DNA of 60,367 nucleotides from Methanobacteriota archaeon (GTDB taxonomy: Archaea; Halobacteriota; Methanosarcinia; Methanosarcinales; Methanosarcinaceae). The stretch's first letter is position 1. Each line of letters opens with the position of its first letter. Positions 16,644-34,769 of the stretch are shown here, piece after piece. Both the position numbers and the translations under genes were made by a program. The notes beneath the pieces were generated by a model. It had not been told where the DNA came from. It made no database searches and worked only from the letters and a program-made list of their open reading frames with translations. Location: NCBI GenBank assembly GCA_016841265.1, contig JAENZL010000020.1:1-60367 (forward strand). The letters run 5' to 3'.

Positions 16644-16706
16644 AAAGAAAAAATAGAAAGAAACTGCCGGATCGGGGATTGGCATGAACCGGCACCTTCC
16701 AGACCT

Positions 16707-17471
16707 TCACCCAAGCATCAAGCGCATGATTATGTAAAACAGGAGGTCTCCGAACACAACTGCGGCAATAAAACCCGCTGTAATCGAAAGCATGAACGGG
16801 AGACCCGGGGTCACCCATACATCGTTTCCAATCAAACCTTTTTTCAGGTATTCTTCAAGTTCGGGCTTCAGGTTTGCATCGAAGTTAAGCCCTGCCCTGG
16901 CAAAGCTCCTTTTCAATTCTCCGGCTTCATCCATCTCAAACTTCTCGAGCAGGCCGAGGTGCTCTTTATTCTTCAGGGAAGAAATCGCGGTCCTGTACCC
17001 TATGAACATGTAGAAGGGCTTTTTGAGCATCTCGGGAGAAAAGTGCAGGAGGTTGTAGCAAAACATCCCCAGGGGCACGATGATTGTGAGGAGCAGGGCA
17101 TTTCCGAGCACCGTGAACGTAAAGAGCCCGATGGGAGGAAGGCCGAGCAGGGGATAAAATTCGCCGCCCAGCCGGAAGACCGGGTAAGTGGGAATGAGAA
17201 TGGAAAGCACGATCAACCCTTTTGCGTCCCCGCCTCCGAAAGCTCCGAACTGAAAAAGGATGTAAACGATAACAAACACGATTACCCCGGAAATGAGAAG
17301 GGCTTTGAGATAGGGAACCCCGCCCGCAGCAAGTTCATAGAGGACAAAGACCGAGCCCGAAGCTAGCATGTATTTCCAGACCTTATTGGAGACCCGCCGG
17401 GCCTTCAGGTCGGAGTAACATGAATAGAGAAGAAAGGGCATGCAGAAGAGGATTTTCAGTATTTCGATCAT
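16707..17471 (-). CDS. Archaeal prepilin peptidase (A24 aspartyl protease, FlaK/PibD-like)
   Basis: An integral membrane protease expected to cut the class III signal peptides of archaeal pilins or archaellins. It carries both catalytic Asp motifs: SDLKARRVSN (Asp21) and FGGGDAKG (GxGD type, near residue 80). There are about six hydrophobic segments, with a soluble insertion of about 60 residues before the last (EMDEAGELKR... to LKPELEEYLKKG). 254 residues is typical of the archaeal A24 group. ATG at 17471. No pilin genes are nearby. It is convergent with cbiE. Confidence 0.88.
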   Translation of the reverse strand: MIEILKILFCMPFLLYSCYSDLKARRVSNKVWKYMLASGSVFVLYELAAGGVPYLKALLISGVIVFVIVYILFQFGAFGGGDAKGLIVLSILIPTYPVFRLGGEFYPLLGLPPIGLFTFTVLGNALLLTIIVPLGMFCYNLLHFSPEMLKKPFYMFIGYRTAISSLKNKEHLGLLEKFEMDEAGELKRSFARAGLNFDANLKPELEEYLKKGLIGNDVWVTPGLPFMLSITAGFIAAVVFGDLLFYIIMRLMLG

Positions 17472-17786
17472 GTAAACCGGGATGAAGCTTTTTTGCGGTA
17501 TAAAGGAAAATGTATCGTATAAAGGAAAATTTATGCCGTATACAGTAAAATATCAGTGTAATGATATTACCACTGTAAAGATATCAAAGAACGGTTATAT
17601 AACCTGCGGTCTGGCTGAGCCGGGAGACCTGGAAAAAGAGAGAACTCGCAAGAAATCCGGCTTCACCATAAAAGAGCAGTATAACCGGTCAGGGAAAGCC
17701 CGAAACCGACAAACAGGCGATAAGCTTATACGTAAGAAGTTCTATTTTATGGTTGCTCAACCCTCAGGGGTTTCCTTATACACCAT

Positions 17787-17860
17787 GGGCTCGTGGTCTA
17801 GTCGGTTATGACGTCGCCTTCACACGGCGGAGGTCCTGAGTTCGAATCTCAGCGGGCCCA
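17787..17860 (+). tRNA. tRNA-Val (anticodon CAC), integration target
   Basis: Acceptor stem GGGCTCG (17787-17793) pairs with CGGGCCC (17853-17859), with one G-U. The anticodon stem TCGCC/GGCGG surrounds loop TTCACAC, so the anticodon is CAC. The T arm is CTGAG-TTCGAAT-CTCAG, discriminator A at 17860. A T-rich terminator follows at once. Its 3' 46 bp are repeated at 20362-20407, marking it as an attachment site. Confidence 0.97.
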
Positions 17861-17960
17861 CTTTTCTTTTTTTGCGATTTTAAGAGTTTTAAAAGCTTCT
17901 TTTCTACAACCTCAAGCCTTGATTAGAGGTCAGAATTACTTTTGAGTTGTACAACCACAG
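17861..17960 (-). pseudogene. Integrase N-terminal remnant, int(N), next to tRNA-Val
   Basis: On the minus strand the codons ending at the tRNA read SRLEVVEKKLLKLLKSQ and a Lys-rich run. They then pass without a frame break into the tRNA 3' half, which reads as GPAEIRTQDLRR. A short coiled coil followed by a tRNA-derived GPxxIRTxDL linker is the N-terminal plan of SSV/pNOB8-type integrases, whose gene contains the attachment site and is split on integration. An in-frame TAA upstream of SRLEV shows it is decayed. Confidence 0.6.
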
Positions 17961-18374
17961 AAAAACGTATGCTTGATCCCCTGCGAGTTGTGCGCACAAC
18001 CGAGGTAATCGTAACTGCTCATTATTTAGAAGCGTCATCATTTGACTACATCATTAAGTAAAGGTAGACATTACAATCATTCTAATTTATGGCAATATAG
18101 ACAGCAAGAAAGCAGATATTATAAATAGATAAATGTTGGCAATTTACTTAAATAAACAATTTCTCGCCATCATTAGCCATACTTCTAAAACATGAAAAGT
18201 TACTTCTTTAGGAGTTACGCACTTGAAATGTAAAATCAAGAACATGAGAGCTTGCTAAGAATAGTATTTATTGGACAGTTTGATGCTTCTGCTACTGGTT
18301 TTTTTCAACTGCGTAAGTCCTATTCTTTTTTTATATTATAGTTCACAAATAGATCCAGATATGTTCGATTGCAA
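17961..18374. other. Gene-free left part of the integrative element
   Basis: About 410 bp of AT-rich sequence between the int(N) remnant and the DUF3467-like gene. No open frame, RNA gene or repeat is convincing. Confidence 0.4.
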
Positions 18375-18719
18375 TTAAGAATCTTCCATTAAATCTGGGT
18401 TTTCAGAAACTATTTGTTCTAGAGTCTTGATTTCCCCATAGAGTTTTTCATACTGTTCGATGAGTTTACCAAACAATTTGTATGTTTTAACTATTTGTTG
18501 AGGTGAAACTTTGACTTGTACCTCATCAACATAATATTCTTCCTCTCGTTCTTCTTGTTTATTAGTATCAAGTGGTTCATTTTGAATCATATAAATAAAA
18601 TAGCCTTCCCTGAATCCAGCATAAATTCTATCTTGCGTAATCTCCCTGTAATTTTCAGATCTTGTTGTTTTTACTTTTTGTGGAGTGTTGCTGAATTTAA
18701 TTCTTACATCTGGTTCCAT
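18375..18719 (-). CDS. DUF3467-like small protein
   Basis: A 114-residue acidic protein. The C-terminal part (VQVKVSPQQIVKTYKLFGKL then YEKLYGEIKTLE) resembles DUF3467, whose members share a VxxSPQxAKxL segment followed by a helix ending in YExxFG. Function unknown. ATG at 18719 follows AGGTGAAATC, a good ribosome site. It lies 52 bp downstream of the winged-helix gene on the same strand and may be cotranscribed with it. Low GC, like the rest of the element. Confidence 0.6.
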   Translation of the reverse strand: MEPDVRIKFSNTPQKVKTTRSENYREITQDRIYAGFREGYFIYMIQNEPLDTNKQEEREEEYYVDEVQVKVSPQQIVKTYKLFGKLIEQYEKLYGEIKTLEQIVSENPDLMEDS

Positions 18720-18771
18720 GATTTCACCTCAAGACAAAATAGAGTTATTTATCATGTTATGCACTAGATAT

Positions 18772-19299
18772 TTAGGATGTTGTAGATGCCACAGTATATT
18801 TAAATTGATCCGGAATTTTGAAGCATCCATCAGAGGGATATGCATTGGCTATAGTAATGTTATCTTCTTGGTTGCTTTCTAATTTTGAACGCATTCTTGT
18901 CATTGAACTTGTAGATTTTTCATCCAATTTTGACATGTGAAGATCAGTTAGCTGAGGCACACTAATTGTATTCATCAAATTGTTGATTATTCCTTCTCCG
19001 AATTCTGTGATATCATAAAAAGAATAACTGTCTACGTTTTCTTTTTTGATATATTCGTTTTTAACTAATGCACTTTTTTGAAGCTTTTTGATGTGATATG
19101 CTAATTTACTGCTGTAATTTGATGGAATTTCTAATTCACTCCTTATTTGTGAAAAAGACAATTCGCCATATTTGAAAAGGACAAAAAAAGCAGCTAATCC
19201 TATATCACTACTTAAGGCATCCATTGCTAGCCTAAGTTCATAAGGCATTTCATTCGCATACTCTTTTATTTTTTCATTTTCGTATGTAGCCATAATCAT
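18772..19299 (-). CDS. Winged-helix (ArsR-like) transcriptional regulator of the element
   Basis: A 175-residue protein. Residues about 20-105 fold as a winged helix: DIGLAAFFVLFKYGELSFSQ, then a recognition region (LEIPSNYSSKLAYHIKKLQK) and a wing with YSFYDITEFG. The C-terminal 70 residues are polar, of unknown role. It is divergent from the Rossmann-like gene, whose earliest ATG is only 15 bp away, so it probably controls that gene and itself from the shared region. ATG at 19299; an ATG two codons later is equally possible. Confidence 0.75.
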   Translation of the reverse strand: MIMATYENEKIKEYANEMPYELRLAMDALSSDIGLAAFFVLFKYGELSFSQIRSELEIPSNYSSKLAYHIKKLQKSALVKNEYIKKENVDSYSFYDITEFGEGIINNLMNTISVPQLTDLHMSKLDEKSTSSMTRMRSKLESNQEDNITIANAYPSDGCFKIPDQFKYTVASTTS

Positions 19300-19416
19300 C
19301 CCCTGTACTAGATTATGTGGTTACATTTAGATTGTCAGTTTGCGTATAATTTGATTTACCATAGTATAATTGATTTTACTACTACTTATTTATATTGTAA
19401 AATTTACTTCGAGTGT

Positions 19417-19971
19417 GTGATCTCCCAAAATGTTTCAGAGAGATGGAATAATTTTCAAAAACAAAAAGAAGAATCTATTCTTTCTCTCAAAAGTAAGATT
19501 CTTATTATCATCTATGGTGCATATAACCCACCATCGGACGGAGAGTATTTGGGAGAAAAAGATCGTTTGATCAAACTTAGGGACTATTTGAAAGGTAAAG
19601 GTTATATTGATACTCATATTGTTGAAGATTTCCCCTCTAATGAAAAATCAGTTAGCCCAAACCTTGAAAAGAGTTATGATTGTTTAGAGCTCGCTGATTT
19701 GAACATACTTGTTTTCACTTGTAGGGGTAATACCGATAGTGTTGCCAGTGAATTAAAACATGCAATTGAGAATAATTTACTATTTAAGTGTAAAGTATTT
19801 GAGGAGAAGCATAATGGCATTCCTGCTATGGGTACTTTATTGAAAGAAGAATTAATACCCGAAAGATATGCAGTTGTGCAGGTTGAAAGTAAAAATGATA
19901 CTGATTTACATGAACATGTTTTAGGTGATGTGTTAGCTTTCTTAAAAAAGAACTTCAGAACTTTGAGATGA
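19417..19971 (+). CDS. Uncharacterised Rossmann-like protein, possible nucleotide-processing (deoxyribosyltransferase/TIR-like) domain
   Basis: Not recognised as a named family. The frame is open from an ATG at 19315, but the first 35 residues are AT-rich and unconvincing; a GTG at 19417 giving 184 residues is more plausible. The core begins with a strand SKILIIIYGAYNPP and continues with helices around EKDRLIKLRDYLK. It then has SYDCLELADLNILVF and a GNTDSVASEL helix with a Glu. This S...AD..I.V...G..SV..E pattern recalls nucleoside 2-deoxyribosyltransferase-like and TIR-like enzymes, so NAD or nucleotide cleavage is conceivable but unproven. It is divergent from a winged-helix regulator inside an integrative element. 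Confidence 0.5.
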   Translation: MISQNVSERWNNFQKQKEESILSLKSKILIIIYGAYNPPSDGEYLGEKDRLIKLRDYLKGKGYIDTHIVEDFPSNEKSVSPNLEKSYDCLELADLNILVFTCRGNTDSVASELKHAIENNLLFKCKVFEEKHNGIPAMGTLLKEELIPERYAVVQVESKNDTDLHEHVLGDVLAFLKKNFRTLR

Positions 19972-20027
19972 ATCTATTTTTATGTCTGGTTTTCAGTTCT
20001 GAGATTTATATAATCGATTTCTATGCA

Positions 20028-20500
20028 TCAGAGTTCTCCCGATTTTTTAATCTTGATGAAAAGTCTCCACTTCTCTATACTGCACCCACATACATTATCA
20101 ATCTCTTCATCCTCACAATAGTTAATCAGGTTGCTTAGGCCACGAGATTCTTTATCTTTCAATTGCAAACCCCTGAATTCATTTGGTTTGTGAATCACAT
20201 TATTCTCAAAGAATCGGATCAATAAACTCAAATAGCTCCGCTTAGTACGCTCAGAGAGATCTTTGAGTTTCAACCATGCATTGAACCTATTTTCATGGGC
20301 TTTCCAAAAATCATTAAGGTTAGTGATTATTGGCTTATTAGAACTAGAATCGCTATGCTTAGCCTTCACACGGTGGAGGTCCTGAGTTCGAATCTCAGCG
20401 GGCCCACTCTCTGTATTTTATTTCTTTTCGGATATAGAGGTTTTATAGACTTCCTTTTCTAATGCTTCAAGTCTTGCTTCAAGGGATAAGACCTAATTTT
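20028..20500 (-). pseudogene. Decayed tyrosine integrase: coiled coil, att-derived linker and core-binding domain
   Basis: Reading leftwards on the minus strand in one frame: LSLEARLEALEKEVYK coiled coil (near 20495-20440), one in-frame TAA (near 20425), then GPAEIRTQDLHRVKAKHS across the tRNA fragment. The core-binding SAM-like domain follows (LSERTKRSYLSLLIRFFENN, near 20300-20210) to IKKSGEL and a stop at 20028. Family integrases continue from here into the catalytic domain with its Arg-His-Arg-Tyr residues, which is absent. A GTG at 20369 leaves a 113-residue fragment at most. Because the N-terminal part lies outside the first element, this is likely a hybrid of two elements joined at the att site. 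Confidence 0.7.
20362..20407 (+). repeat. Duplicated 3' half of tRNA-Val (attachment site copy)
   Basis: 46 bp identical to the 3' part of tRNA-Val(CAC), from the anticodon stem through the discriminator base, except for one C-to-T change in the anticodon stem. It lacks the 5' half and cannot make a tRNA. It is the direct repeat expected from site-specific integration into the tRNA 3' end. Confidence 0.95.
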
Positions 20501-20650
20501 TTTAAAACAGAAATTAATTTTCCAGTTGACTCAGAAGAAAATATAACTCAGATCAAATATCCTTGATACTAAAACAATAAGAATAATTACAATTCAAACC
20601 AGTATTCCACTGAATATAACCAGTATTCTTGAAAAATTATTTCTGTGGCA

Positions 20651-20869
20651 TTAGGATCTGATTTCTGGCTCTCTTTTAGAATCAGAATCTTTTTTAATTT
20701 TTCTAATCACCAGCCAGGCAATTAGGGCAATTATTCCAATTATAGGTGCTATAATAATCAATAGTAAGGCAGCAGTAGCCCCTGGAGAAATCATGTCTGC
20801 ACGAACGACTGATGGTAAAATGGATACGCTTAGGCACAATGATATTATGATAATATTTGCTTTTTTCAT
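20651..20869 (-). CDS. Small membrane protein
   Basis: About 72 residues. An N-terminal signal-like segment (NIIIISLCLSVSILPSVV) and a second long hydrophobic segment (AALLLIIIAPIIGIIALIAW) are followed by a basic tail RKIKKDSDSKREPE. Orientation is probably tail inside. Start taken at MKKANI; an in-frame ATG twelve codons upstream overlaps the MFS gene. It is the last gene of a three-gene membrane operon. Function unknown. Confidence 0.65.
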   Translation of the reverse strand: MKKANIIIISLCLSVSILPSVVRADMISPGATAALLLIIIAPIIGIIALIAWLVIRKIKKDSDSKREPEIRS

Positions 20870-20898
20870 TTTTGTACCTTCTAACTTTCTTTTCTTTT

Positions 20899-21939
20899 TT
20901 AGCAATTTAGTTTTCTGCTATATAAAAATAGTGCATAATACAGGACTATTGCTGAACTAATGATTATCGCGAATACTGAAGGACTTTGTGACAGGGAACT
21001 GCCTGCGCCTGCGTATGTTGGAAGAACTCCGATTATTAATGCCAGTGTCGTCAAGCCAAATGAGAAGCCTGGTCTTCCTGGAAGTGTATTTGAGATTGCT
21101 ACCAGAGTAATCGGCATTGTAAAATTGAAGAGGAAAATTCCGAGTATTGCTGCCTCTGGTATTGCTGCTCCAAATGCGAGTAGTGGAGCAGATATTAAAA
21201 GAGATATGACTCCTACCTTTTGCCAGCCGTATTTATCTCCCATAATTCCACCGAAAGCTTTTCCCAGGACTATACCTGAGGTTAGTGTTACTAATAGAAA
21301 GATGTCTGATTTCCAGGGCAAAACGACCACTGAGCCGAGTAATGATCTTGCTATGATTGTCATAAGAAGCAAGAGTATGATTGATTCAAAATAGTTTGTG
21401 TTTATTTTCTCGTCTGTTTTGTAATTTATTTCCGGATATTTTGTATAATACATGAGGGCACAGAGAATAGCAATTATTATTAGCAACGGCCAGGTTGTAA
21501 AGGATCCGCTTTTTCCGTAAAGCGTTCCTATTAAAAGTCCTAATGCTCCGGGAGCTACAAATATCCCTGGTGCTGCTGCCTTATTTTTTGTCAGGTTGAG
21601 ACTTATTGTCCCGCCGCCTACATGAAATAGGGCATTTCCGATGCCTGCAAGGATTATTGCATACAGGGGCGATAGAAAAGAGACAGGTATTGCTGATGCT
21701 GTTATAATAGAACCGGAAATTGCTGAGAGTTTTGGACATCTATACTTATCTACCAGAAGGCCGACTAAAGTCTGGGAGCCGAAAGCAATAACATTATACA
21801 TGATGACTAGCTGGATAAAGTATTCATTAGTTATTGATTTTGAAGATAATAATGAAAATGCCACTGCAGCACAACTTGCATCGATTGCTGCGTGGGATAA
21901 TCCGTAAACTGTGAGATTTTTTGTAAAGTCAGAAGGCAT
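20899..21939 (-). CDS. Major facilitator superfamily transporter
   Basis: 346 residues with about ten hydrophobic segments, slightly short for a 12-helix MFS protein. The MFS loop motif appears twice: GLLVDKYRCPK after helix 2 and GGIMGDKYGWQK in the second half. A glycine-rich helix (GIGNALFHVGGGTISL) resembles the FsrA-like efflux group. Substrate unknown. It follows a 115-residue membrane protein and precedes a small one, all on the minus strand. Placed just right of the tRNA-Val element, in AT-rich sequence; it may be cargo of a second element. Confidence 0.8.
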   Translation of the reverse strand: MPSDFTKNLTVYGLSHAAIDASCAAVAFSLLSSKSITNEYFIQLVIMYNVIAFGSQTLVGLLVDKYRCPKLSAISGSIITASAIPVSFLSPLYAIILAGIGNALFHVGGGTISLNLTKNKAAAPGIFVAPGALGLLIGTLYGKSGSFTTWPLLIIIAILCALMYYTKYPEINYKTDEKINTNYFESIILLLLMTIIARSLLGSVVVLPWKSDIFLLVTLTSGIVLGKAFGGIMGDKYGWQKVGVISLLISAPLLAFGAAIPEAAILGIFLFNFTMPITLVAISNTLPGRPGFSFGLTTLALIIGVLPTYAGAGSSLSQSPSVFAIIISSAIVLYYALFLYSRKLNC

Positions 21940-21970
21940 AAGCTATTTTGCTTGATTTTGATATATAATT

Positions 21971-22318
21971 CTATGGCAGGCCGAATAGTATTATGCCTGT
22001 TAAAAAAGAAGCGAGGTTCATTATTATTGAAAGGATTAAATAGGATTGTTTTTCCTGATTTGGAAGAGCGTATTCCAGTATTTTCCACTCAATGTAAACA
22101 ATCAAGACTTCAAGAATGATTACCAATGAAATATCAGGCTTTATGATATTGAAAATATTGTTTGCCATTACAATGAAATTTGCAATTGGATTTGTTATTA
22201 CATTGACTAAAGAGACTACTAAGAATGTGTTTTTATTTCTGTAACCGAGAAGAAAAATAACAGTCTCTTCTATTAATATTGTTAAAATCAATGCTGTTAA
22301 GAAGCTAATAATTATCAT
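21971..22318 (-). CDS. Uncharacterised integral membrane protein
   Basis: 115 residues with three or four hydrophobic helices and very few charges. Conserved-looking polar points sit inside helices: EETVIFLLGYRNKNT, NVITNPIANF and YIEWKILEYAL. I do not recognise the family. It ends 31 bp before the MFS transporter on the same strand and probably forms an operon with it. Confidence 0.65.
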   Translation of the reverse strand: MIIISFLTALILTILIEETVIFLLGYRNKNTFLVVSLVNVITNPIANFIVMANNIFNIIKPDISLVIILEVLIVYIEWKILEYALPNQEKQSYLILSIIMNLASFLTGIILFGLP

Positions 22319-22399
22319 TTAATCACATATTTTACTTAATGGTTGTACAACTACCGAATCTGCACTAAATTCGTCACCAGGAGAAGCTAAAACAATGGT

Positions 22400-22918
22400 T
22401 TATTCCAGTACAATGTCATAGATGTTTAAAAGGGAGATAACTTCAGGGATGGAAAATATTGTCTTTTTTAGAAAATTGTTATTTGGATTTATATCATAAT
22501 TTTTTGCATTCTTGAACGATGTAAAGCTAAGGTTCGAATTTTTAAAGAGACTATTCTTAAGATCGGAATTATTAAAATTCGCATTTGTAAGATTGGTATT
22601 CACAAAATCACAGTCATATATCTGGCAATTGGTAAAATCGGTATTTTCTAAATTCATGTTGGAAAATACTGACAGGGAAAGAAAAGAATCTTCAAATCCG
22701 AAAGCGAGTATAAAGTCATTGCATTTTGAAAAATCCAATCCCAGAATTTTGCAGCTCTTGAATCTTGTATTCTGAAATTTGGTGTTATCCAGATCGACGT
22801 TTGATAAGTTGCAGTTTTCAAAATCACAATCAATAAACCTTGAATTTTTGAAAGATACATCTGTAAGATCAATATCTTTAAAGGTTTCCGCTTCAAACTC
22901 TTCGTTCTGGTATTCCAT
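22400..22918 (-). CDS. Pentapeptide-repeat protein (Qnr/McbG-like)
   Basis: 172 residues made largely of A(D/N)LxX-type pentapeptides (DLTDVSFKNSRFIDCDFENC, NTDFTNCQIYDCDF, NLTNANFNNSDLKNSLF), which fold as a right-handed beta helix. The repeats are interrupted near residue 65-85, and the chain ends in FSIPEVISLLNIYDIVLE, like the C-terminal helix of DNA-mimic Qnr/McbG proteins that protect DNA gyrase. That role is inference only. ATG at 22918. Low GC like its left neighbours. Confidence 0.85.
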   Translation of the reverse strand: MEYQNEEFEAETFKDIDLTDVSFKNSRFIDCDFENCNLSNVDLDNTKFQNTRFKSCKILGLDFSKCNDFILAFGFEDSFLSLSVFSNMNLENTDFTNCQIYDCDFVNTNLTNANFNNSDLKNSLFKNSNLSFTSFKNAKNYDINPNNNFLKKTIFSIPEVISLLNIYDIVLE

Positions 22919-23065
22919 TATTTAGAGATGTTGTTGCTGTTTTATATGATTTCTTCTCACATGGAGGGAATGAAACCGTGATTCCAGAAGCAAAAAGATG
23001 GAGAATTTGTGGCGATGCAGAGTATTAAATAAATCTGATGCCGAAAACAAATTCAGAAAACAAAT

Positions 23066-23716
23066 TCAGTACTTCCTCTCCCCGAATATGGCAGAACCCA
23101 CGCGCACCATCGTGGCTCCTTCCTCGATGGCAATCCTGTAGTCATTGGACATGCCCATTGAAAGTTCCCTGAGATCTATGTTGTCCCGGTTTTCCTGCTT
23201 CATTTCATCAAAAAGGGCCTTCATTTTCCTGAAATAGGGACGGGTTTGTTCAGAGGGTAGAAAAGGAGGAATGCACATGAGGCCTTCCAGACGGATATTC
23301 CCGAGAGAGTGAATTTCATCTATTGCTTTTTTAATCTCATCCGGTCCGAATCCGTATTTTTGTGACTCGTTGCCTATGTTAACCTGAAGGAAGACCTTCT
23401 GTATTTTGTCGATATCTCCGGCTCTCCTGTTAATATTCCGTATTACCTTCAGGGAGTCAACCGACTGGATAAGATCAAAGAGATCTACGGCTTTTTTGAC
23501 TTTATTTGTCTGTAGATGGCCTATAAGATGTGTCTCGCAGGGCAGTATATCGGTACACTTGTCCTCATACTCCTGAACCCGGTTCTCTCCGATGATAGTG
23601 GCTCCGGCTCTGATAGCTTCGTTTATCCTTGCAGGTTTAATCGTCTTGGTGACACAAACTAGCTTTGTGTTTCCGATCTCCTCAAGAATCAACTTCATAT
23701 TTTCATAGACTGGCAT
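23066..23716 (-). CDS. YggS/PROSC-family pyridoxal-phosphate homeostasis protein
   Basis: A PLP-binding, single-domain TIM-barrel protein that buffers vitamin B6 and affects amino acid balance. The PLP lysine is in LVCVTKTIKP (about residue 24). Other family segments are GENRVQEYEDK, HLIGHLQTNKVKK, VNIGNESQKYGF, MGMSNDYRIAIEEGATMVRVGSAIFGER. 216 residues is slightly shorter than bacterial YggS at the N-terminus. ATG at 23716. Stand-alone. Confidence 0.93.
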   Translation of the reverse strand: MPVYENMKLILEEIGNTKLVCVTKTIKPARINEAIRAGATIIGENRVQEYEDKCTDILPCETHLIGHLQTNKVKKAVDLFDLIQSVDSLKVIRNINRRAGDIDKIQKVFLQVNIGNESQKYGFGPDEIKKAIDEIHSLGNIRLEGLMCIPPFLPSEQTRPYFRKMKALFDEMKQENRDNIDLRELSMGMSNDYRIAIEEGATMVRVGSAIFGERKY

Positions 23717-25188: not shown

Positions 25189-26697
25189 TCAATTACCGTT
25201 CTCATTCACGTCCCCGTTTCCATTAATTGTGAGCATAATCTCCTTGAAACTTGCCAGCGAAGCCTCCATATTCTCAATAATCTCGTTTGCAAGAATATCA
25301 GGGTCCGGAAGGTTGTCCAGATCAGCGAGACTTTTGTCCTTGAGCCAGAATATATCCAGGTTCGTTTTATCCCTTGCCACGATTTCCTCATAGCTGAATT
25401 TACGGAACCTACCTTCGGGAGATTCCTCACTCCAGGTATCTGTACGGCTGAGGCAGTTTTCAGGGTTGTAGCATTTGATAAAGTCTTCGAGATCCGAAAA
25501 CTTCATCGGGTTCTTCTTCAGGGTGTGGTGCACGTTGGTGCGGTAATCGTAGATCCACACTTCTTTTGTCCAGGGCTCTTTAGCTGCGGGTTTTGCCTCA
25601 AAGAAAAGCACGTTTGCCTTTACGCCATTCGCATAAAAGATCCCGGTCGGCAGGCGCAGGATTGTGTGCAGGTCGGTGGTCTCAAGAAGCTTTTTGCGGA
25701 CGGTTTCTCCTGCTCCGCCTTCAAACAGTACATTATCCGGCAATACCACTGCTGCCTGCCCGCCGGTTTTGAGGATCGTATGGATATGCTGCACAAAGTT
25801 GAGCTGCTTGTTGCTTGTGGTTGTCCAGAAGTCCTGACGGTTGTAGGTGAGCTCTTCTTTTTCCTGTTCGCCTTCTTCGTTGGTGAAGGTCATGCTGCTC
25901 TTCTTTCCAAAGGGCGGGTTGGTGAGGATGTAATCGTAACGGTAGCCGGGGTCGGCGATGAGAGCGTCGGAATTGGAGATCATGGGCTCCCCGTCGATTT
26001 CCCCGATATTGTGCAGGAACATGTTCATCAGGGCAAGCCTGCGGGTCCCTGCTACGATCTCGTTCCCGCCAAAGGTTTTGTTTTTCAAAAAGCGGCTCTG
26101 TTCCCGGTCCGGCTGGTGCTCTGAGGTCAGGAAGTCATAAGCTGCTAAAAAGAACCCGCCTGTGCCGCAGCAGGGGTCGCCTATGGTTTTCAAAGGTTCG
26201 GGCTGCAGGCAGCGGACCATGACCTTGATGAGCGGCCTGGGGGTGAAGTATTGGCCGGCTCCGCTTTTTGTATCCTCTGCGTTCTTCTGCAAGAGCCCTT
26301 CATAGATCTCGCCCTTGGTATCCACGCCCATCATGACCCAGCTTTCCTTGTCGACCATATCAATGACCTTGTAGAGCATGGCAGGGTCGCTGATCTTGTT
26401 CTGCGCCTTGAGGAAAATCTGCCCCAGCATCCCCGGCTTTTTCCCCAGCTCTTCCAAAAGCCCCTTGTAGTGCGTATCGAGTTCCGCTCCACGCTGCTGT
26501 TTCAAATTATCCCAGGTATATTCCTCCGGGATGCCAATATCCCTGTTATACGGTGCCTTCCTGTACTCTTGAGCCATTTTCAGGAATATGAGATAGGTCA
26601 ACTGTTCCAGATAATCGCCATAGCTCACGCCCCCGTCCCTCAGGACGTTGCAGAAGCTCCAGACTTTGGAAACGATGGATGAGGTATTTTCAGACAT
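25189..26697 (-). CDS. hsdM: Type I restriction-modification DNA methyltransferase subunit HsdM
   Basis: Adenine-N6 methyltransferase subunit of a type I system. The N-terminal HsdM helical domain (SKVWSFCNVLRDGG...YLEQLTYLIFLKMAQEY) is followed by the AdoMet motif DPCCGTGGFFLAAYDF and the catalytic motif NPPFGKK (NPPF class). 502 residues, normal. Its first 8 bp overlap the end of the AlbA_2 gene, so translation is coupled. Transcribed as hsdS, AlbA_2 gene, hsdM. Confidence 0.96.
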   Translation of the reverse strand: MSENTSSIVSKVWSFCNVLRDGGVSYGDYLEQLTYLIFLKMAQEYRKAPYNRDIGIPEEYTWDNLKQQRGAELDTHYKGLLEELGKKPGMLGQIFLKAQNKISDPAMLYKVIDMVDKESWVMMGVDTKGEIYEGLLQKNAEDTKSGAGQYFTPRPLIKVMVRCLQPEPLKTIGDPCCGTGGFFLAAYDFLTSEHQPDREQSRFLKNKTFGGNEIVAGTRRLALMNMFLHNIGEIDGEPMISNSDALIADPGYRYDYILTNPPFGKKSSMTFTNEEGEQEKEELTYNRQDFWTTTSNKQLNFVQHIHTILKTGGQAAVVLPDNVLFEGGAGETVRKKLLETTDLHTILRLPTGIFYANGVKANVLFFEAKPAAKEPWTKEVWIYDYRTNVHHTLKKNPMKFSDLEDFIKCYNPENCLSRTDTWSEESPEGRFRKFSYEEIVARDKTNLDIFWLKDKSLADLDNLPDPDILANEIIENMEASLASFKEIMLTINGNGDVNENGN

Positions 26698-28147
26698 GGT
26701 TTGAATCCTTGAGATAAGAGTAATATTTTTGATTCGGGCTGCTTGGTTTTTCAGGAATGGTGAGGAAGAGTTTTCCTTCTTGAATAAGTGGATTTAAGAT
26801 TTCTACTCTGAAATGCTTCCTGTCTTTTAATCCCATAAACTCTTGAATTTCTTCTCTGCTTCTTGGTTCAATACAATACTCTAATAATGCGTTGATCTTG
26901 TCGTTTTCAGCTTGGGGGGTAGCTTGGGGGGTAGCTTTGGGGGTAGCCTGGGGGGTAGCCTGGGGGGTAGCTTGGGGGGTAACAGGAACAATGATCTTAA
27001 AAATGTCTCCTTCAAGAAGTTGTGGGTCAACTCCACCGGAATAAATCCGTGTGTAGTTGTAGAGATTCCTGACACCTGAGCCTAACTCATCTGCCCTTCC
27101 GATTTCTTTGAAAAAGCGAGCAATTACCGGATTTTTAGGGTATGGTGTGAAATTGGAAGGATTTATTCTGCCATGCCCATGCGGACGGTTTGCATTCTCC
27201 GCAACAACCTGATTAGTTCCAATTATGAATTTTGCAGGAAAACCGTTTATGTACTCCCTGTGGATGAGTATATTTGTAACAACTTCTCTGAAGATATGAT
27301 CTCTCAAACTGATTCTCTGGTCCTTTTCCAGATAGAACGGGTCAGGCAGGTGTTTTGCAACAAAAGCCATCAGCCTGTCATAACTTTCGATCAGGTTGGT
27401 GCGGATATCGTCCCTGTCGTCATACCGGTCAAGATTTACTCTGCGAAGGATTGCATCAGTCTTGAAATGGGGCAGGACGCTCTGGATAACTTCGTCTTTG
27501 CCCAGCAAAAGAATGGCAGCGAGAGTGTAACCTTCTTTGCCGGTCTGGTAATCATGCTGATACAAACGGGCACTGTTCAGAAGTTCCACATCAGTCATTG
27601 TTGCCCACGGATGATTGGGATTCTCTGCCCGAACCATTTTCCGTACTCTCTGGATAAGGTCACTCCTGAGGTCTTCCAATCTGACATAGGGATAAATGCG
27701 GTTCTCTGAAAATGAACTCTGTTTTCGAATATAGAGGTGAGCCACAGCATCAGGATGATTGGTAACATCCAGATCCCCATCTTCATTCCTGTCAAATATT
27801 TTTCCTTTACAGCGGTGAACCTGCGAACTTTCAGGAATATTGAGATAGAGAAGGATTTTTCCTTCAATCATCACGGTTTCCGGCAATATGTACAGAGGAG
27901 GATTGATTATCTGAGGGTTATTCAGGGCAGTAACAAGATCCTTTTTGATCTGTGGCAGAGCATCCGCATCAATTCCTGTGATATTTCCATTGTCATCAAC
28001 TCCAAGAACAATATGTCCCCCATTGCGATTTAAAAAAGCACAGACACTATCATACACATCACGATTCAGCTTTGTCCTGCACTCCTTAAATTCGATGGTA
28101 AGGCCTTCACCATCCCTTATGATGCTCTTCAATTGCTCTGAAATCAT
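26690..28147 (-). CDS. Schlafen/AlbA_2 domain ATPase-like protein with winged helix, inside the RM operon
   Basis: 485 residues. An N-terminal Schlafen AlbA_2 domain (GEGLTIEFKECRTK, FLNRNGGHIVLGVDDNG) precedes a RecG-like HATPase segment (FREVVTNILIHREY, then GRADELGSGVRNLYNY). A linker of six Ala-Thr-Pro-Gln/Lys repeats and a C-terminal winged helix (IEPRSREEIQEFMGLKDRKH) follow. It overlaps hsdS by 4 bp (ATGA) and hsdM by 8 bp, so all three are translated together. Such proteins are often found within type I RM and phage-defence loci; the role could be regulation or an added nucleic-acid-targeting activity. The linker DNA is a 12-bp tandem repeat that stays in frame on expansion. Confidence 0.85.
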   Translation of the reverse strand: MISEQLKSIIRDGEGLTIEFKECRTKLNRDVYDSVCAFLNRNGGHIVLGVDDNGNITGIDADALPQIKKDLVTALNNPQIINPPLYILPETVMIEGKILLYLNIPESSQVHRCKGKIFDRNEDGDLDVTNHPDAVAHLYIRKQSSFSENRIYPYVRLEDLRSDLIQRVRKMVRAENPNHPWATMTDVELLNSARLYQHDYQTGKEGYTLAAILLLGKDEVIQSVLPHFKTDAILRRVNLDRYDDRDDIRTNLIESYDRLMAFVAKHLPDPFYLEKDQRISLRDHIFREVVTNILIHREYINGFPAKFIIGTNQVVAENANRPHGHGRINPSNFTPYPKNPVIARFFKEIGRADELGSGVRNLYNYTRIYSGGVDPQLLEGDIFKIIVPVTPQATPQATPQATPKATPQATPQAENDKINALLEYCIEPRSREEIQEFMGLKDRKHFRVEILNPLIQEGKLFLTIPEKPSSPNQKYYSYLKDSNHV

Positions 28148-29706
28148 GCTCTGCCCTTCTTCCCATTGATTGTCTTTTCGGCCTGTACCCTATCAAGCAA
28201 AACCTCAGCCGGCTCCCAATCCTCTGCCCCTCGAACCTCTGCCAGCTCTTTTTCGTTAAGCAACTTCCCCTCAAACGCTTTTTTCAAAATACTCTGCCGC
28301 AGTGCTTCGGCTTTTTCCAGATTCTCTTTTATATCCTGCTCTATCTTATCGCAGACTGAAAGGCGTGTTTCGATTTCCTGAACGATGGCTTGTTGTTCAT
28401 CTATAGAACAAATAGCAACTGTAGCTTTCTTGACATCCTCTAAGTTAAGCGTTTTTCTTGCAACTTCATGTGCTTGGGATGTTAATTCATGAATTTTCTC
28501 TGATCTACGAAAGAAATACTCTATATAATAAGGGTTTAAGAGTTTTGATATTGGAACTACCCCAACAGCCCTTGCAACATTTGCACCCTTAATATTAATT
28601 GGTGCAATTGCTGTTCTTCCAATTGCACCAACTAGAGATATCAAAAGCTCGCCCCCCTCTAAGAATGTTCTTTTGTATTTATTGGCGATATCAGAAGAAA
28701 TTTGTTTCAACTTACTTGTATTAACTTTTCCGTTGACTATATCTCCAACACGTACTAAAGGAATTCCTTCAGGTAAATCATCACCGGGTTGCAAAACTCC
28801 ATAGGCACATTCTCGATTAGGCTGTAATATCTCATCAGCTATTGTCCATTTCCATCCTTCTGGCAGTTTTGGTAATTTTGCAAGTTCCGCTTCTGTAAGA
28901 GATTTATTTTCCTTCGATTTTTTGGGTTTAGTGGGCTTTTTACCTTCTTTTCCTTTTGCTTCCCATTCTTTTACCTTTTTTTTCCACTCTTCCAGTTTTT
29001 GATAATAACTTTCTTCCCGCTCTACTCGAATCTGCTCCAACAAATCCCCCGTATCCGGCAAATCAGTCTGCTGCTCCCGCCATTTTTTCGTAAGCTCTCC
29101 CTCAAAAGCTTTCTTCAGCACCGCCTGCCGATACACCTTGAGCTGTTCCTGTGCCAGTTTGAGGTTGGCAATGCCGTTGTCCAGTTCGCTGAAAAGCTGC
29201 TCGATTTTGGAGACTATGGCGCGTTGTTCGGGGAGTGGAGGCAAAATAATTTCAAATTTTTTGAGTTTTCTTTGATTTATTGAAGATTGATTTACAGCTC
29301 TTTGAGCTACCTCTATGAATTTTCCTTGTATTCGTAGGAATTTAAATTGGTAGTTTAAAAAATCTGCATTTATGAGACAACTCGGACGCAATAGAAGTAA
29401 ATTAATTCCGTGAATTAATATTTTGCACTGATTCTTAAAAATAGCTGTTTTCCCTAAATGCGCATCACTATTTATATGACTCAATAGAATGTCGCCATAT
29501 TTTAATGAATATTTCTCAATAAAATCTGTATCGTTTTCAACAATATACTTTACCCTATTCAAATCAATAGTTTCATTCCATATTGTTTCAATTCTTGTAA
29601 TTGGAAATCCGATTTTTTCATTGAATTGCTTAGAAGAGCTTCCATTTTTCATCTCAATGATGACTTCATCTAAAAGACAATCAACCCATCCAATTCTTTC
29701 TTCCAT
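28144..29706 (-). CDS. hsdS: Type I restriction-modification specificity subunit HsdS
   Basis: 520 residues with two target-recognition domains, each followed by a conserved coiled coil. The first repeat ends with LPPLPEQRAIVSKIEQLFSELDNG, and the second contains LPEGWKWTIADE and ends with SIDEQQAIVQEIETRL. Each TRD reads one half of a bipartite target. A Lys-rich tract (GKEGKKPTKPKKSKENK) separates the halves. ATG at 29706 is only 2 nt after the stop of a short vestigial frame. It heads the hsdS, AlbA_2, hsdM operon. Confidence 0.95.
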   Translation of the reverse strand: MEERIGWVDCLLDEVIIEMKNGSSSKQFNEKIGFPITRIETIWNETIDLNRVKYIVENDTDFIEKYSLKYGDILLSHINSDAHLGKTAIFKNQCKILIHGINLLLLRPSCLINADFLNYQFKFLRIQGKFIEVAQRAVNQSSINQRKLKKFEIILPPLPEQRAIVSKIEQLFSELDNGIANLKLAQEQLKVYRQAVLKKAFEGELTKKWREQQTDLPDTGDLLEQIRVEREESYYQKLEEWKKKVKEWEAKGKEGKKPTKPKKSKENKSLTEAELAKLPKLPEGWKWTIADEILQPNRECAYGVLQPGDDLPEGIPLVRVGDIVNGKVNTSKLKQISSDIANKYKRTFLEGGELLISLVGAIGRTAIAPINIKGANVARAVGVVPISKLLNPYYIEYFFRRSEKIHELTSQAHEVARKTLNLEDVKKATVAICSIDEQQAIVQEIETRLSVCDKIEQDIKENLEKAEALRQSILKKAFEGKLLNEKELAEVRGAEDWEPAEVLLDRVQAEKTINGKKGRA

Positions 29707-29708
29707 TT

Positions 29709-29747
29709 TTACGCCGCCAGAGCCTCACATAATTCTGTATTCGAACG
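29709..29747 (-). pseudogene. Possible vestige of an hsdR 3' end in front of hsdS
   Basis: The minus strand just before hsdS reads SNTELCEALAA then TAA, ending 2 nt before the hsdS ATG. The hsdR gene in this window ends SELNEALAA-stop with nearly the same bases (GAGGC-CTGGCGGCGT). This suggests an hsdR gene once lay directly upstream of hsdS. The match is short. Confidence 0.4.
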
Positions 29748-30195
29748 TTATCAATTTTGAAGTACTTTTAAGATGGCAGTTGATTAAATAATTGTCTACT
29801 TATGCCTTTCAGCAATATAATAAGAAATTTAAACTGTATAAAGGCATATATGCCTGTATTAGAGTCACAAACAAAGAAAAAGCATCTCGAAAATAGTGTA
29901 CCATTGAAAATTAACCGGGGATGAGTGGGATTGCGAATGTTAAGAATTATTCTGACAATCTCAGTGTTTCACTAATTTTCATCCTTCTAAAGTGAAAATA
30001 TTTTTCTTATTACTGTGGAAGTGTCTGTCGGCAAGAATTCTGTTCATTTTGTCTCAAAACAGTATAATGACGTTGCTTGTTAAATATCTAAAACGAAAAG
30101 TTGAGAAAAACAGTAAAAAAAGAGGAAACAACATCTATACGCTTTAACTTTGATTAAAAGAGTGAATAAGGGGTTCACAAGGTTTGGTCTGCAAC
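29748..30195. promoter_or_regulatory. Probable promoter region of the hsdS operon
   Basis: AT-rich, without a gene. Transcription of hsdS-AlbA_2-hsdM should start here. Candidate TATA-like stretches on the minus strand lie near 29815-29850, but none is clear. Confidence 0.3.
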
Positions 30196-30735
30196 AATGA
30201 AGTTTATTGCAGGATCAGATTTTACTCCGACCTGAATTTGCTCCATTTTAAGCTTACACGTCAATGAAGTAGATTACGGGATCAGCTTTCAGACTACCCT
30301 GAATTTGCTTCATCTCGCAGTTTACGCCATAATGAAGTATATTACGGGATCAGATTTTACTCTGTCCTGAATTTGCTCCAACTTATAGCTACGCGTCAAT
30401 GAAGTATTAATTACGGGGTCAGTTATCAGGCGGTCCTGAATTTGCCTCATTTTAAGCTTACGCGTCAATGAAATAGATTTCGAGATCGGTTTTCAAGCCG
30501 TCCTGAATTTGCTTCATCTCGCAGTTTACGCCATAATGAAGTATATTACGGGATCAGATTTTACTCTGTCCTGAATTTGCTCCAACTTATAGCTACGCGC
30601 CAATGAAGTAGATTTCGAGTCGGTTTTCAAGCCGTCCTGAATTTGCTCTATTTTACAGCTTACGCGTCAATGAAGTAGATTTCGAGATCAGGTTTTACTC
30701 TGTCCTCAATTTGCTTCATTTTACAGCTTAGTTCC
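30196..30735. repeat. Array of eight approximately 68-bp tandem repeats
   Basis: Units begin (AATGAAG) at 30196, 30263, 30331, 30398, 30467, 30535, 30602 and 30669, spacing 67-69. Units diverge by 10-30 percent. The block from 30263 and the block from 30467 are near copies, giving a 204-bp higher-order repeat. Each unit starts AATGAAGTA and contains TTGCTTCAT about 40 nt later, so each can fold into an imperfect hairpin. It lies between the PRC-barrel gene and the hsdS operon. Confidence 0.93.
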
Positions 30736-31171
30736 TTGTGAACAATATATTATATGTAAGTTAAAGTACAAAATACTGTCGGTTATAAAATACTGACGCT
30801 TATATTACCCAGCGTAATATAAGCAGTTCGTTATTTTGCTGAATCTGCCTGTAAATAATCAGTAAGATACTCTGTAGATCAGTGTGCACATCAAATGCTT
30901 TACTAATTTTCACATTCTTAAAAAAAAGCCTTATGGCCCCCATACATGGCTAAAAAGCCATTATATGAACCTCATTTAGAAGGAAAACAGATAAAACAGG
31001 TTTTTAAGGAAATAAGGCACATAAATTTGACTGAAATAAATTATTCAATGGAAAAGGGCATATCTTCAAAAATAGTAAGGTTTCCGGGAACCTCAAGTCT
31101 TTCCTGTCTTCTTCGGTAAGAAAATCGGATCGGAAACAACAATTATCATATCATCAACCGAAAATGAGCTT
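30736..31171. other. Intergenic, no gene recognised
   Basis: AT-rich sequence between the repeat array and the PRC-barrel gene. A short inverted repeat TGACGCTTATATTAC / GTAATATAAGC is visible near 30793-30823. No coding region is convincing. Confidence 0.4.
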
Positions 31172-31543
31172 TTAAACTTCCCAGTAAGGAGGAACATTAT
31201 ACTGTTCATACACTTTAACCAAATCGCTACGATTTAAAGTCCACACATCTTTATCCAGGCCTTCTGCCGTTTTGAATGCTTCCTTATCAACTTTAAGGGT
31301 ATAAGCTCCTCGACTTGCTTCAAGAGCTCCCCAGGGAATGGCAAAGAATTTACACTTCATACCAAGAAAACAATCACAAGCAAATACTAAGTATGCGATT
31401 CTTCCCCATTCAGAGTCAATCATGACTTCTTTAATCGTTCCGAGTTCTTCATCTTTAATAGTAAGGATCTTAGATCCTTTTATTTCCGTTGCCGCCACAA
31501 AAGTCCTGTTCCTTGGAACTTGCGTTTCTTCAGCTATTCCCAT
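31172..31543 (-). CDS. PRC-barrel domain protein
   Basis: 123 residues forming a PRC-barrel-type beta fold. TFVAATEIKGSKILTIKDEELGTIKEVMID is the typical opening strand pair, followed by IAYLVFACDCFLGMKCKFFAIPWGAL and a C-terminal TLNRSDLVKVYEQYNVPPYWEV. Family members occur as stress or RNA-processing accessories; function here unknown. ATG at 31543 (MGIAEE) follows a GGGAG/GAGG ribosome site. It interrupts the RM locus between hsdR and hsdS. Confidence 0.88.
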   Translation of the reverse strand: MGIAEETQVPRNRTFVAATEIKGSKILTIKDEELGTIKEVMIDSEWGRIAYLVFACDCFLGMKCKFFAIPWGALEASRGAYTLKVDKEAFKTAEGLDKDVWTLNRSDLVKVYEQYNVPPYWEV

Positions 31544-31749
31544 ACACCTCAACTCCCAATATATTATTCACTTGTTGTCTTTATTTATTTCTTCCAAAAG
31601 TAAAGAGAAGCGTTCCATGCTCTTCGCCTGCCCATCATAACGCCCCATTAATAATAACAATTCATTAATAATATACATTCCTTACGTACTTGAGGTCATG
31701 TCCACCAGTAAATGAAAACTGTGATCAAAAGAAAGTCTATGAACTTCCT

Positions 31750-32000
31750 CAGAATGCTAGTTTTCACCCCACTTTTCACCCCACTTTTCACCCCACTTTT
31801 CTCCCAACTTATCTCCCAACCTATTCTCCTCTTTTAGGATCAATTTTCCACCGCAAGATGCTTATTTATTTGCTTTTATCCGATTATTTTCCCCCAACTT
31901 TCCACCCCACTTTTCACACCACTTTTCACCACAGTTTCACCACAGTTTCATCACAGTTTTCTCCCAACTTTTCACCACAGTTTCACCACAGTTTTCTCCG
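31750..32000. repeat. TTTTCACCCCA/TTTCACCACAG short tandem repeats beyond the hsdR 3' end
   Basis: Two clusters of 11-12-bp repeats. CTTTTCACCCCA-like units occur near 31756-31830, and CAGTTTCACCACAG/TTTTCTCCCAAC units near 31890-31997, running to within a few bases of the hsdR stop codon. An open frame crosses them but encodes only FHPTFHPTF-type repeats. Confidence 0.85.
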
Positions 32001-32003
32001 AAC

Positions 32004-34769
32004 TCACGCCGCCAGCGCCTCATTCAATTCGCTAATAACCATATTCATCTCGTCCCCGAAAAGCTGGTACATTCTGCCCCGCCCGCCAAGGGCATCGAAG
32101 GGAGTGTAATCGAGGTCGTCTATTTCCAGGTGGAAGCTGGTAGCAACATAATCTTTTATCATTCGGAGCCAGTTCATCTGGTCGTCATTGAATTTCAGGG
32201 TTCCTGCCTGTTTTTTGAATACCCAGTCCTGGAAGTTCCGGTTTACGGTCTGGTCGTAGGCTGTTAGAACGGGATCGATTTCGGTTATCCTGCGGATGAG
32301 GGATACCAGGGCGATAAGCTCTTTTTTCGGGGAATTGCCGTTTACCTTTTCCAGCTGCTCGTAAGCTTGCCAGACCCTGAAGGGAGCGAAATGGGGCTTT
32401 TCGAGTTTCAGCTTTTCCAGGACTTCTTTTAGCATCTTGAAGGTGACTTCCCTGCGCTGGTAGGGCTGGTTGTAGAAGATTCTCAGGGCTGCGATCTCGT
32501 CTTTGTTAGCTTCCATATATGCCTTAAAATCAATGATCAGTTCATCCGCTTTTGCCACAGCGTCTTTGTCCCATTCGGCCCTGAGCACGGTGTCGGTGTT
32601 CAAGGTATCGATGATCTGCTCATGGACCCTGCGGACATTTTCGATGTACTCGTTCAGCTCTCCGGAAAAGGTAGACCTGGCAAGATCAATCAGGTTTTCC
32701 TGTGCCTTTTTCTGAGCATCGGCGTCCTGAATTTCCGGTTGGTGTTGTTTAACCTCAACTGCTTTGGAATCAATGATATCAGGGTTATATGCACTGAGCA
32801 GGTCCTTAACAGTCTGGTTGATAGTTTTTCCGTTTGCTTTCTCAGCAAAAGTGGCTCTTTCGTCCTCACTTATCTGCCTGTTCAGCCTTGCCAGACGGTT
32901 CGCCAGGGAAACATAAAGGTCTTCATCCTGAGCGCCAAAAGTTACTGCTGCCAGCAGGTCTTTCAGTGAGGTGGCCCTCTTGCGTTCCAGAGGCCTGCTG
33001 TCGGTCTTCAGGGTCTTTGTAACGCCCACGGCATCCACAATTACAAAATGCGTCTTGGCAGAAACAGCCGAGGTTGTCACCTTTTTCAGGTCATCATAGC
33101 CCAGGGTCCGTGTACCCCGGCCTTTCATCTGCTCAAAATAATTAAGGCTCTTAACATCCCTCATGAAAAGTAGGCATTCCAGCGGCTTGACGTCCGTACC
33201 TGTTGCAATCATGTCCACCGTAACCGCGATTCTGGGATTGTACTCATTGCGAAAAGCTGACAACACCGATTTGGGGTCTTCTTCCGCTTTGTAGGTTACT
33301 TTCTTGCAAAAGGCATTGCCTTCGTTGAATTCTTCCCGCAGTATATTGATGATATCATCGGCATGGCTGTCGGTCTTGGCAAAGACCAGGGTTTTTGGAA
33401 CTTCCTCTCTGCCAGGGAAGATCTCAGGCAGCTTTTCCTTAAATGTCCGTATTACGTGCCGGATCTGGCTGGGGTTGACAACATCCCTGTCCAGCTTCTT
33501 AGCAGTATAGGTGACAGCTTCGTCCAGTTGTTCCCAGCGTTTTTTACGGGTAAGTTTCTCCCGTTTGTCCACGTACTCCTTCGCAGCGATCTTTGCCCCG
33601 TTTTTGCTGATCTCGGTCTCGATGGTGTACACATCATAGCCCACATTCACGCCGTCTGCTACAGCTTCTTCATGGCTGTACTCGCTCACCACATTCTCAT
33701 TGAAAAACGCGAATGTGCGTTTATCCGGCGTAGCTGTCAAACCTATCAAAAAAGCATCGAAATAGTCCAGCACCTGCTGCCAGAGGTTGTATATGGAACG
33801 GTGGCACTCGTCTATGACCACAAAATCAAACTCTTCAAGGGGAACCTTCTCATTATACACAACCGGAAGCGGTTCCTTTGGCTGCCACCCTTTCTCAGCC
33901 GGGTTTTCTTCCTCGATTTTTTCGTCAAGCTCCTCGTCCTTCAAAATAGAGTACAGCCGCTGGATTGTGGAAATGCAGACCTGGCTGTCCGAGGAGATAT
34001 AACTGGAACGCAGGCGCTGCACATTGTACAGCTCGGTAAATTTGCGGTTATCGTCATTGGGCACATAAGCCATGAATTCCTGCTCTGCCTGTTCGCCCAG
34101 GTTTTTGGTATCGACAAGGAAGAGCACCTTTTTTGCATCCGCAAATTTTAGTAAGCGGTAGATGAAGGTTATGGCAGTATAGGTTTTTCCGGAACCTGTT
34201 GCCATCTGGACCAGAGCCCTCGGGCGGTTGTCCTTAAAGGATTTTTCAAGCCTTAAGATAGCGGTAATCTGGCAGTCCCGCAGCCCTTCGGTCCGCAATT
34301 CGGGTATATCCAGGAACCTTTCCCTCAAAGGTTTCTTTTTGATATATTCATCAAATGTCTCGGGGCGGAGAAAAGAAAAAACAGGTCTTGACCTGGGTTT
34401 CGGGTCACGGAAGTCTGTGAATCGTGTAAGTGCCCCGGTGCTCTCGTACACAAAAGGAAGCGGGTCATTGTTCAGGTACTTTAGCGTGCTTGCAGCATAC
34501 TCGGAGGATTGTTCCTCGACAACAGTTAAGCGGTGGCCTTCATCGTCCCTTTTAGCCTCAATAATTCCAGCGGGCCTTTTGTCAACAAAGAGTACATAAT
34601 CAGCCGGCCCCACATCAGTCAGGTACTCCTTAACCGCAATGCCCCTGGAAGCATTCCAATCGATCCTGGTCTTATCCTGCACTATCCAGCCGGAATCGTT
34701 CAGTTTTCTATCGATATCATCCCTGGCTTTCTGCTCCGGATTCTGGTTATGAGTCTGCTTATTGCTCAT
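32004..34769 (-). CDS. hsdR: Type I restriction enzyme subunit HsdR
   Basis: DNA-translocating nuclease subunit, 921 residues. The N-terminal PD-(D/E)xK nuclease shows ADYVLFVDKRPAGIIEAKR (Asp and EAK) near residues 55-74. The SF2 helicase follows with QMATGSGKT, VVIDECHRS, a LTATP motif and the second RecA domain (IATGTDVKPL, MKGRGTR). The helical C-terminus contacts HsdM. Apparently intact. ATG at 34769 overlaps the stop of a tiny upstream frame. hsdR is separated from hsdS by 2.3 kb and presumably has its own promoter. Confidence 0.96.
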   Translation of the reverse strand: MSNKQTHNQNPEQKARDDIDRKLNDSGWIVQDKTRIDWNASRGIAVKEYLTDVGPADYVLFVDKRPAGIIEAKRDDEGHRLTVVEEQSSEYAASTLKYLNNDPLPFVYESTGALTRFTDFRDPKPRSRPVFSFLRPETFDEYIKKKPLRERFLDIPELRTEGLRDCQITAILRLEKSFKDNRPRALVQMATGSGKTYTAITFIYRLLKFADAKKVLFLVDTKNLGEQAEQEFMAYVPNDDNRKFTELYNVQRLRSSYISSDSQVCISTIQRLYSILKDEELDEKIEEENPAEKGWQPKEPLPVVYNEKVPLEEFDFVVIDECHRSIYNLWQQVLDYFDAFLIGLTATPDKRTFAFFNENVVSEYSHEEAVADGVNVGYDVYTIETEISKNGAKIAAKEYVDKREKLTRKKRWEQLDEAVTYTAKKLDRDVVNPSQIRHVIRTFKEKLPEIFPGREEVPKTLVFAKTDSHADDIINILREEFNEGNAFCKKVTYKAEEDPKSVLSAFRNEYNPRIAVTVDMIATGTDVKPLECLLFMRDVKSLNYFEQMKGRGTRTLGYDDLKKVTTSAVSAKTHFVIVDAVGVTKTLKTDSRPLERKRATSLKDLLAAVTFGAQDEDLYVSLANRLARLNRQISEDERATFAEKANGKTINQTVKDLLSAYNPDIIDSKAVEVKQHQPEIQDADAQKKAQENLIDLARSTFSGELNEYIENVRRVHEQIIDTLNTDTVLRAEWDKDAVAKADELIIDFKAYMEANKDEIAALRIFYNQPYQRREVTFKMLKEVLEKLKLEKPHFAPFRVWQAYEQLEKVNGNSPKKELIALVSLIRRITEIDPVLTAYDQTVNRNFQDWVFKKQAGTLKFNDDQMNWLRMIKDYVATSFHLEIDDLDYTPFDALGGRGRMYQLFGDEMNMVISELNEALAA

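Follow-up and report, generated by a model that had tools for sequence, protein, structure and literature searches.

Suicidal integrases, their split into int(N) and int(C), tandem integration and the puzzle of excision were treated in a 2021 review of archaeal tyrosine recombinases (PMC8371274), which names the Methanosarcinales among the hosts of pT26-2-type integrases. An element of this type carries its attachment site (att) inside its own integrase gene, and its integration leaves int(N) beside the tRNA gene and int(C) at the far end. The elements described here lie in a 60,367-nucleotide stretch of DNA (the window) from a member of the Methanosarcinaceae. They resemble pT26-2, a plasmid of Thermococcus sp. 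26/2, in an att that lies in and is translated with the integrase gene, in the tRNA target, in the int(N)/int(C) split and in the Phage_integr_3 domain. The intact int(C) of a relative (G108) was 33% identical to the pT26-2 integrase over 99% of its length. Unlike pT26-2, the window copies are fragments without the catalytic domain, and the Methanosarcinaceae proteins carry an N-terminal domain and a coiled coil. Elements of the SSV type (SSV1 and relatives) share the partition mechanism and tRNA targeting, but are distant in sequence: integrases of spindle-shaped viruses were weakly homologous (28–33%), and the elements of the window showed no structural genes of fuselloviruses.

Tandem arrays, in which several elements are stacked at one site and re-use a single target, have been noted for archaea (PMC6563490, PMC8371274). 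The present locus is similar in this respect, but each inner junction here also joins parts of two integrase genes, because att lies inside the gene. How elements that split their own integrase leave again, and how integrases swap parts, is the puzzle set out in PMC8371274, where excision is put down to integrase supplied from outside and chimeric integrases to homologous recombination between inverted elements. In the literature examined, the scope of which left out key older papers, no description was found of tandem integration rebuilding a chimeric gene.

At the 3′ end of tRNA-Val(CAC) in the window, two suicidal elements of the SSV/pT26-2 type are very probably stacked, the inner one having arrived later. 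Comparison with relatives showed the insertion and its boundaries, the order of events, how the domains of the integrase are arranged, and a third att in those relatives. The features of the locus are as follows.

16707-17471, minus strand: archaeal type IV prepilin (A24) peptidase, left chromosomal flank
17787-17861, plus strand: tRNA-Val(CAC), intact
17816-17860, plus strand: att copy 1, within the tRNA gene, bounding element 1 on the left
17816-20361: element 1, 2,546 bp from att to att, the later of the two insertions, missing at this site in G001
17863-17922, minus strand: remains of int(N) of element 1, with coil SRLEVVEKKLLKLLKSQKKK leading into SGPAEIRTQDL
18375-18719, minus strand: cargo gene of element 1 (114 aa) with a weak, sub-threshold match to DUF3467, relative in G080
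18772-19299, minus strand: cargo gene of element 1 for a winged-helix protein of 175 aa, related genes in G080 and in G021
19315-19971, plus strand: element 1 cargo, 218 aa, no family
20028-20408, minus strand: remains of int(C) of element 1, comprising att peptide and core-binding domain
20362-20406, plus strand: att copy 2, bounding element 1 on the right and element 2 on the left
20407-22987: element 2 remnant, older insertion
20421-20492, minus strand: remains of int(N) of element 2, with coil SLEARLEALEKEVYKTSISEKK, which TAA at 20418-20420 severs from the att peptide
20651-20905: element 2, small membrane protein
20899-21939: element 2, MFS-like protein
21971-22318: element 2, protein of 115 aa
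22400-22918: element 2, pentapeptide-repeat protein
22988-23060: deletion scar, about 77 bp in the window as against about 830 bp (one gene and the third att) in G003
23066-23716, minus strand: Ala_racemase_N (YggS-like) protein, followed by inorganic pyrophosphatase, right chromosomal flank

The preliminary description had reported a duplication of the 3′ half of tRNA-Val(CAC) at 20362-20407, and this was confirmed, with 45 of 46 bases the same and a single mismatch in the 45-base att core. The tRNA gene has been left intact, and its 3′ end is repeated on the far side of the insert. No further site within 12 mismatches of the core was detected in the window, and among 20 random sequences of the same 60-kb length, generated from a Markov model, the closest match had 20 mismatches. 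The GC content was about 0.50 to the left of the tRNA as compared with about 0.31–0.36 between and just past the att copies; the DNA between the copies (about 0.32) is therefore foreign in composition. The A24 prepilin peptidase adjoins tRNA-Val(CAC) in nearly all Methanosarcinaceae loci compared.

On the minus strand, the same frame at both att copies reads a coiled coil followed by the peptide SGPAEIRTQDL. At the left copy, a stop codon (17923-17925) precedes the coil SRLEVVEKKLLKLLKSQKKK and SGPAEIRTQDL, and the frame ends inside the tRNA; the N-terminal domain is lost and only about 20 residues of this int(N) remain. The frame at the right copy runs from SLEARLEALEKEVYKTSISEKK through a stop, NTE and SGPAEIRTQDL into the core-binding domain and ends in EL and a stop at 20028. 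This int(C), which was about 75% identical to the intact int(C) of G108, breaks off after KIKKSG (then EL), just before the catalytic domain, which is missing. Since Phage_integr_3 (PF16795) is absent from the shortened copy and present in intact relatives (L148, L147; E about 1e-39), the window int(C) is a remnant of a member of the suicidal integrases and not a working member. Relatives of the core-binding part were found in 35 of the 112 genomes of the family.

The TAA at 20418-20420 lies between LEARLEALEKEVYKTSISEKK and NTESGPAEIRTQDL in the frame of the right copy, i.e. between coil and att. It is a later change in the lineage of the window, because the same int(N) is open through to att in three related genomes (G001, G002 and G096). 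A working hybrid integrase in the window is ruled out by this stop together with the lack of a catalytic domain; no working integrase is present at the locus, and the hybrid is a pseudogene. Of the single frame that had been described from coil to att peptide at both copies, and on into the core-binding domain at the right copy, the order and the frame thus stood, but the right copy is broken by the TAA. Likewise, the proposed second tandem element, with its int(N) joined to the int(C) of the first, was upheld in structure and order, but not as an intact gene. Both elements are presumably now immobile, because both int(N) remnants carry stops, int(C) of element 1 lacks the catalytic domain and element 2 has lost its far end to a deletion.

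The order of insertion was assessed with an empty-site join, in which window positions 16706-17860 were fused to 20407 onward and compared with G001, a genome of the same genus without the insert. With positions 17861-20406 removed, the alignment was gapless over 1,232 bp (93.8% identity) and ran straight across the junction; in G001, element 2 directly follows the tRNA. The slot between the tRNA and element 2 is thus absent from G001, and measures 1.5 kb in G002, 5.3 kb in G003 and 2.5 kb in the window, the DNA in G002 and G003 being different from element 1. These alignments indicate that element 2 is the older insertion and that element 1 was placed between the tRNA and int(N) of element 2, as the inner slot differs among genomes of the genus while element 2 is common to all.

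The locus very probably arose in the following manner. Element 2 integrated first at tRNA-Val(CAC). Element 1 then recombined into the att linking the tRNA to int(N) of element 2, landing between them, and the two parts that meet at the middle att are therefore int(N) from element 2 and int(C) from element 1. The recombination was presumably carried out by the integrase. In accordance with the arrangement proposed in the preliminary description, int(N) of element 1 lies at the tRNA and its int(C) at the far end, and full-length integrases carry the coil N-terminally. The empty site that it had suggested looking for exists in G001, with other inner elements in G002 and G003, and the further att expected to the right was found in G001, G002, G003 and G096, the window's own copy being lost. 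These comparisons turned up no full-length integrase with a C-terminal coil, and no syntenic genome that had the same sequence but lacked an insertion.

For element 2, membership of the class is indicated by the int(N) coil and the att copies; no int(C) of its own was recognized beside the third att in G001, G002 and G003, or in any genome keeping the far att. This, together with the lack of a third att in a scan of the whole window and the int(N) scraps found beside this tRNA in many Methanosarcinaceae, would fit an explanation in which only element 1 was mobile and the coil past the right att is old chromosomal sequence or a scrap belonging to no element. However, of the 112 family genomes only five (all four of the genus, and G096 from another genus) hold the complete block behind the coil, always at this tRNA and in G096 directly against it. 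A third att, with 5–6 mismatches in 45 bases, lies at the far end of the block in G001, G002, G003 and G096, which largely refutes this explanation and makes it very unlikely. Comparison with G003 indicates that the window's third att was lost by deletion. A segmental duplication of the tRNA region, which the near-perfect 46-bp direct repeat would fit as well as integration, can be dismissed, as the similarity reaches no further than the tRNA end in one direction and the att core in the other, and the intervening DNA is foreign in composition and absent from G001, where the gapless empty-site alignment shows a clean join.

Two stacked elements therefore remain the preferred reading of the locus. 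Element 2 was 94–97% identical in G001, G002 and G003 and 92% identical in G096, as compared with 81% for part of the chromosomal flank in G096, a difference that hints at passage of this element between genera. A small gene (AEKKPIIRVYF...) is located just inside the third att in the four genomes (L018, L019, L020, L082) and is duplicated in G096. The pentapeptide-repeat gene has close relatives in many genomes of the family that lack the rest of element 2, including DNA of 93% identity at the same locus in G074.

Among 24 tRNA-Val(CAC) loci, the window included, 18 had at least one further att, nine at least two and two had four, counted within the available stretch, which for several loci ends at a contig end. 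The frame next to the tRNA was read at 29 loci, many of which had an int(N) coil at this position. At the same tRNA, G002 and G003 have at least three directly repeated att copies, separated by differing DNA; the window keeps two. A complete element of about 15.8 kb was found at the same tRNA in G083, with a whole int(N) by the tRNA and a whole int(C) by an exact 48-bp repeat, and represents the undamaged form of what is left in the window.

An intact junction was detected in G060 (L173/L174), which belongs to a genus other than that of the window. Its unbroken protein of 436 residues comprises an N-terminal domain, the coil SDIESRLKSVEKQLSLLQKS, the tRNA-derived segment GPDEIRTHDPRRVK, the core-binding domain and a catalytic domain (Phage_integr_3, PF16795, E 1.6e-39). 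SGPAEIRTQDL lies in frame between coil and core-binding domain both in the unbroken relative and in the int(N) and int(C) pieces. The site is tRNA-Val(UAC), which is adjoined by one int(N) (1318335 onward); the next att, identical over 45 bases, is 16.8 kb away inside the unbroken gene. The two int(N) of G060 differ from each other (34% identity, tblastn match), and the second occurs in Methanolobus bombayensis (L182) at 93% identity, directly against the same tRNA. Because M. bombayensis keeps the same int(N) abutting the tRNA, tandem integration has given G060 an in-frame chimera of resident int(N) and newcomer int(C), M. bombayensis representing the state before entry of the 16.8-kb element and G060 the state after it. 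Among 186 genomes of the order searched, G060 alone covered residues 1-436; the remaining matches were to the N-terminal part, several of them ending at att, or to the C-terminal part. As no further att was found within 20 kb to the left of the chimera, the resident element of G060 may itself be a remnant. Another junction of this type, interrupted, is present in G031. Two junctions in G058 with open frames of 373 and 411 codons were rejected as intact hybrids, since upstream of att they had no match to the int(N) domain. A search of viral contigs for episomal forms gave none, and no excised or circular form is visible in the assemblies.

The type of integration at the window locus is already known, and the window is a decayed, worn-out example of it. 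At this locus and in its relatives, elements stacked at a single tRNA bring the front part of one integrase into frame with the back part of a different one, and at least one of these junctions is unbroken; this wider pattern, with one intact chimera, is the part worth following up. Judging from the sequence of G060, tandem integration can rebuild a chimeric full-length integrase gene. It is a tentative suggestion, which we hold to be possible rather than probable, that tandem integration is a way back for integrases that split themselves. Each newcomer entering the tRNA-proximal att would link its int(C) to the int(N) of the resident, and so could restore a full-length, chimeric and predicted active integrase on the chromosome, with no need for homologous recombination or for superinfection by another element. 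The window junction would, equally tentatively, be a decayed case of the rebuilding seen in G060.

With regard to cargo, relatives of the 218-aa gene of element 1 (67–72% identity) were found only in G080 and G021 among the 112 family genomes, beside the same winged-helix gene. The cassette (18375-19971) recurs in two other genera (L145, 7881-9536; L146, 7903-8919), and consists of the winged-helix gene divergent from the 218-aa gene, with the DUF3467-like gene in two of the three cases. No tRNA gene was found near the cassette in L145 or L146, and neither PADLOC nor PHROGs returned a firm match for the cargo. Two neighboring stretches of element 1 (18008-18330) match repeats in many family genomes at 70–86%, and also at G000:C13:37527-37653. 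The second has inverted ends resembling GGAGTTACGCA...TGCGTAAGTCC, suggesting that it is probably a small transposon-derived repeat. Positions 25189-34769 of the window encode the type I restriction-modification proteins HsdM, HsdS and HsdR, the genes for M and S being separated by a Schlafen AlbA_2/Fic-like_C gene. A relative of HsdM was located near the same tRNA in several relatives, and in G080 it directly follows an att copy.
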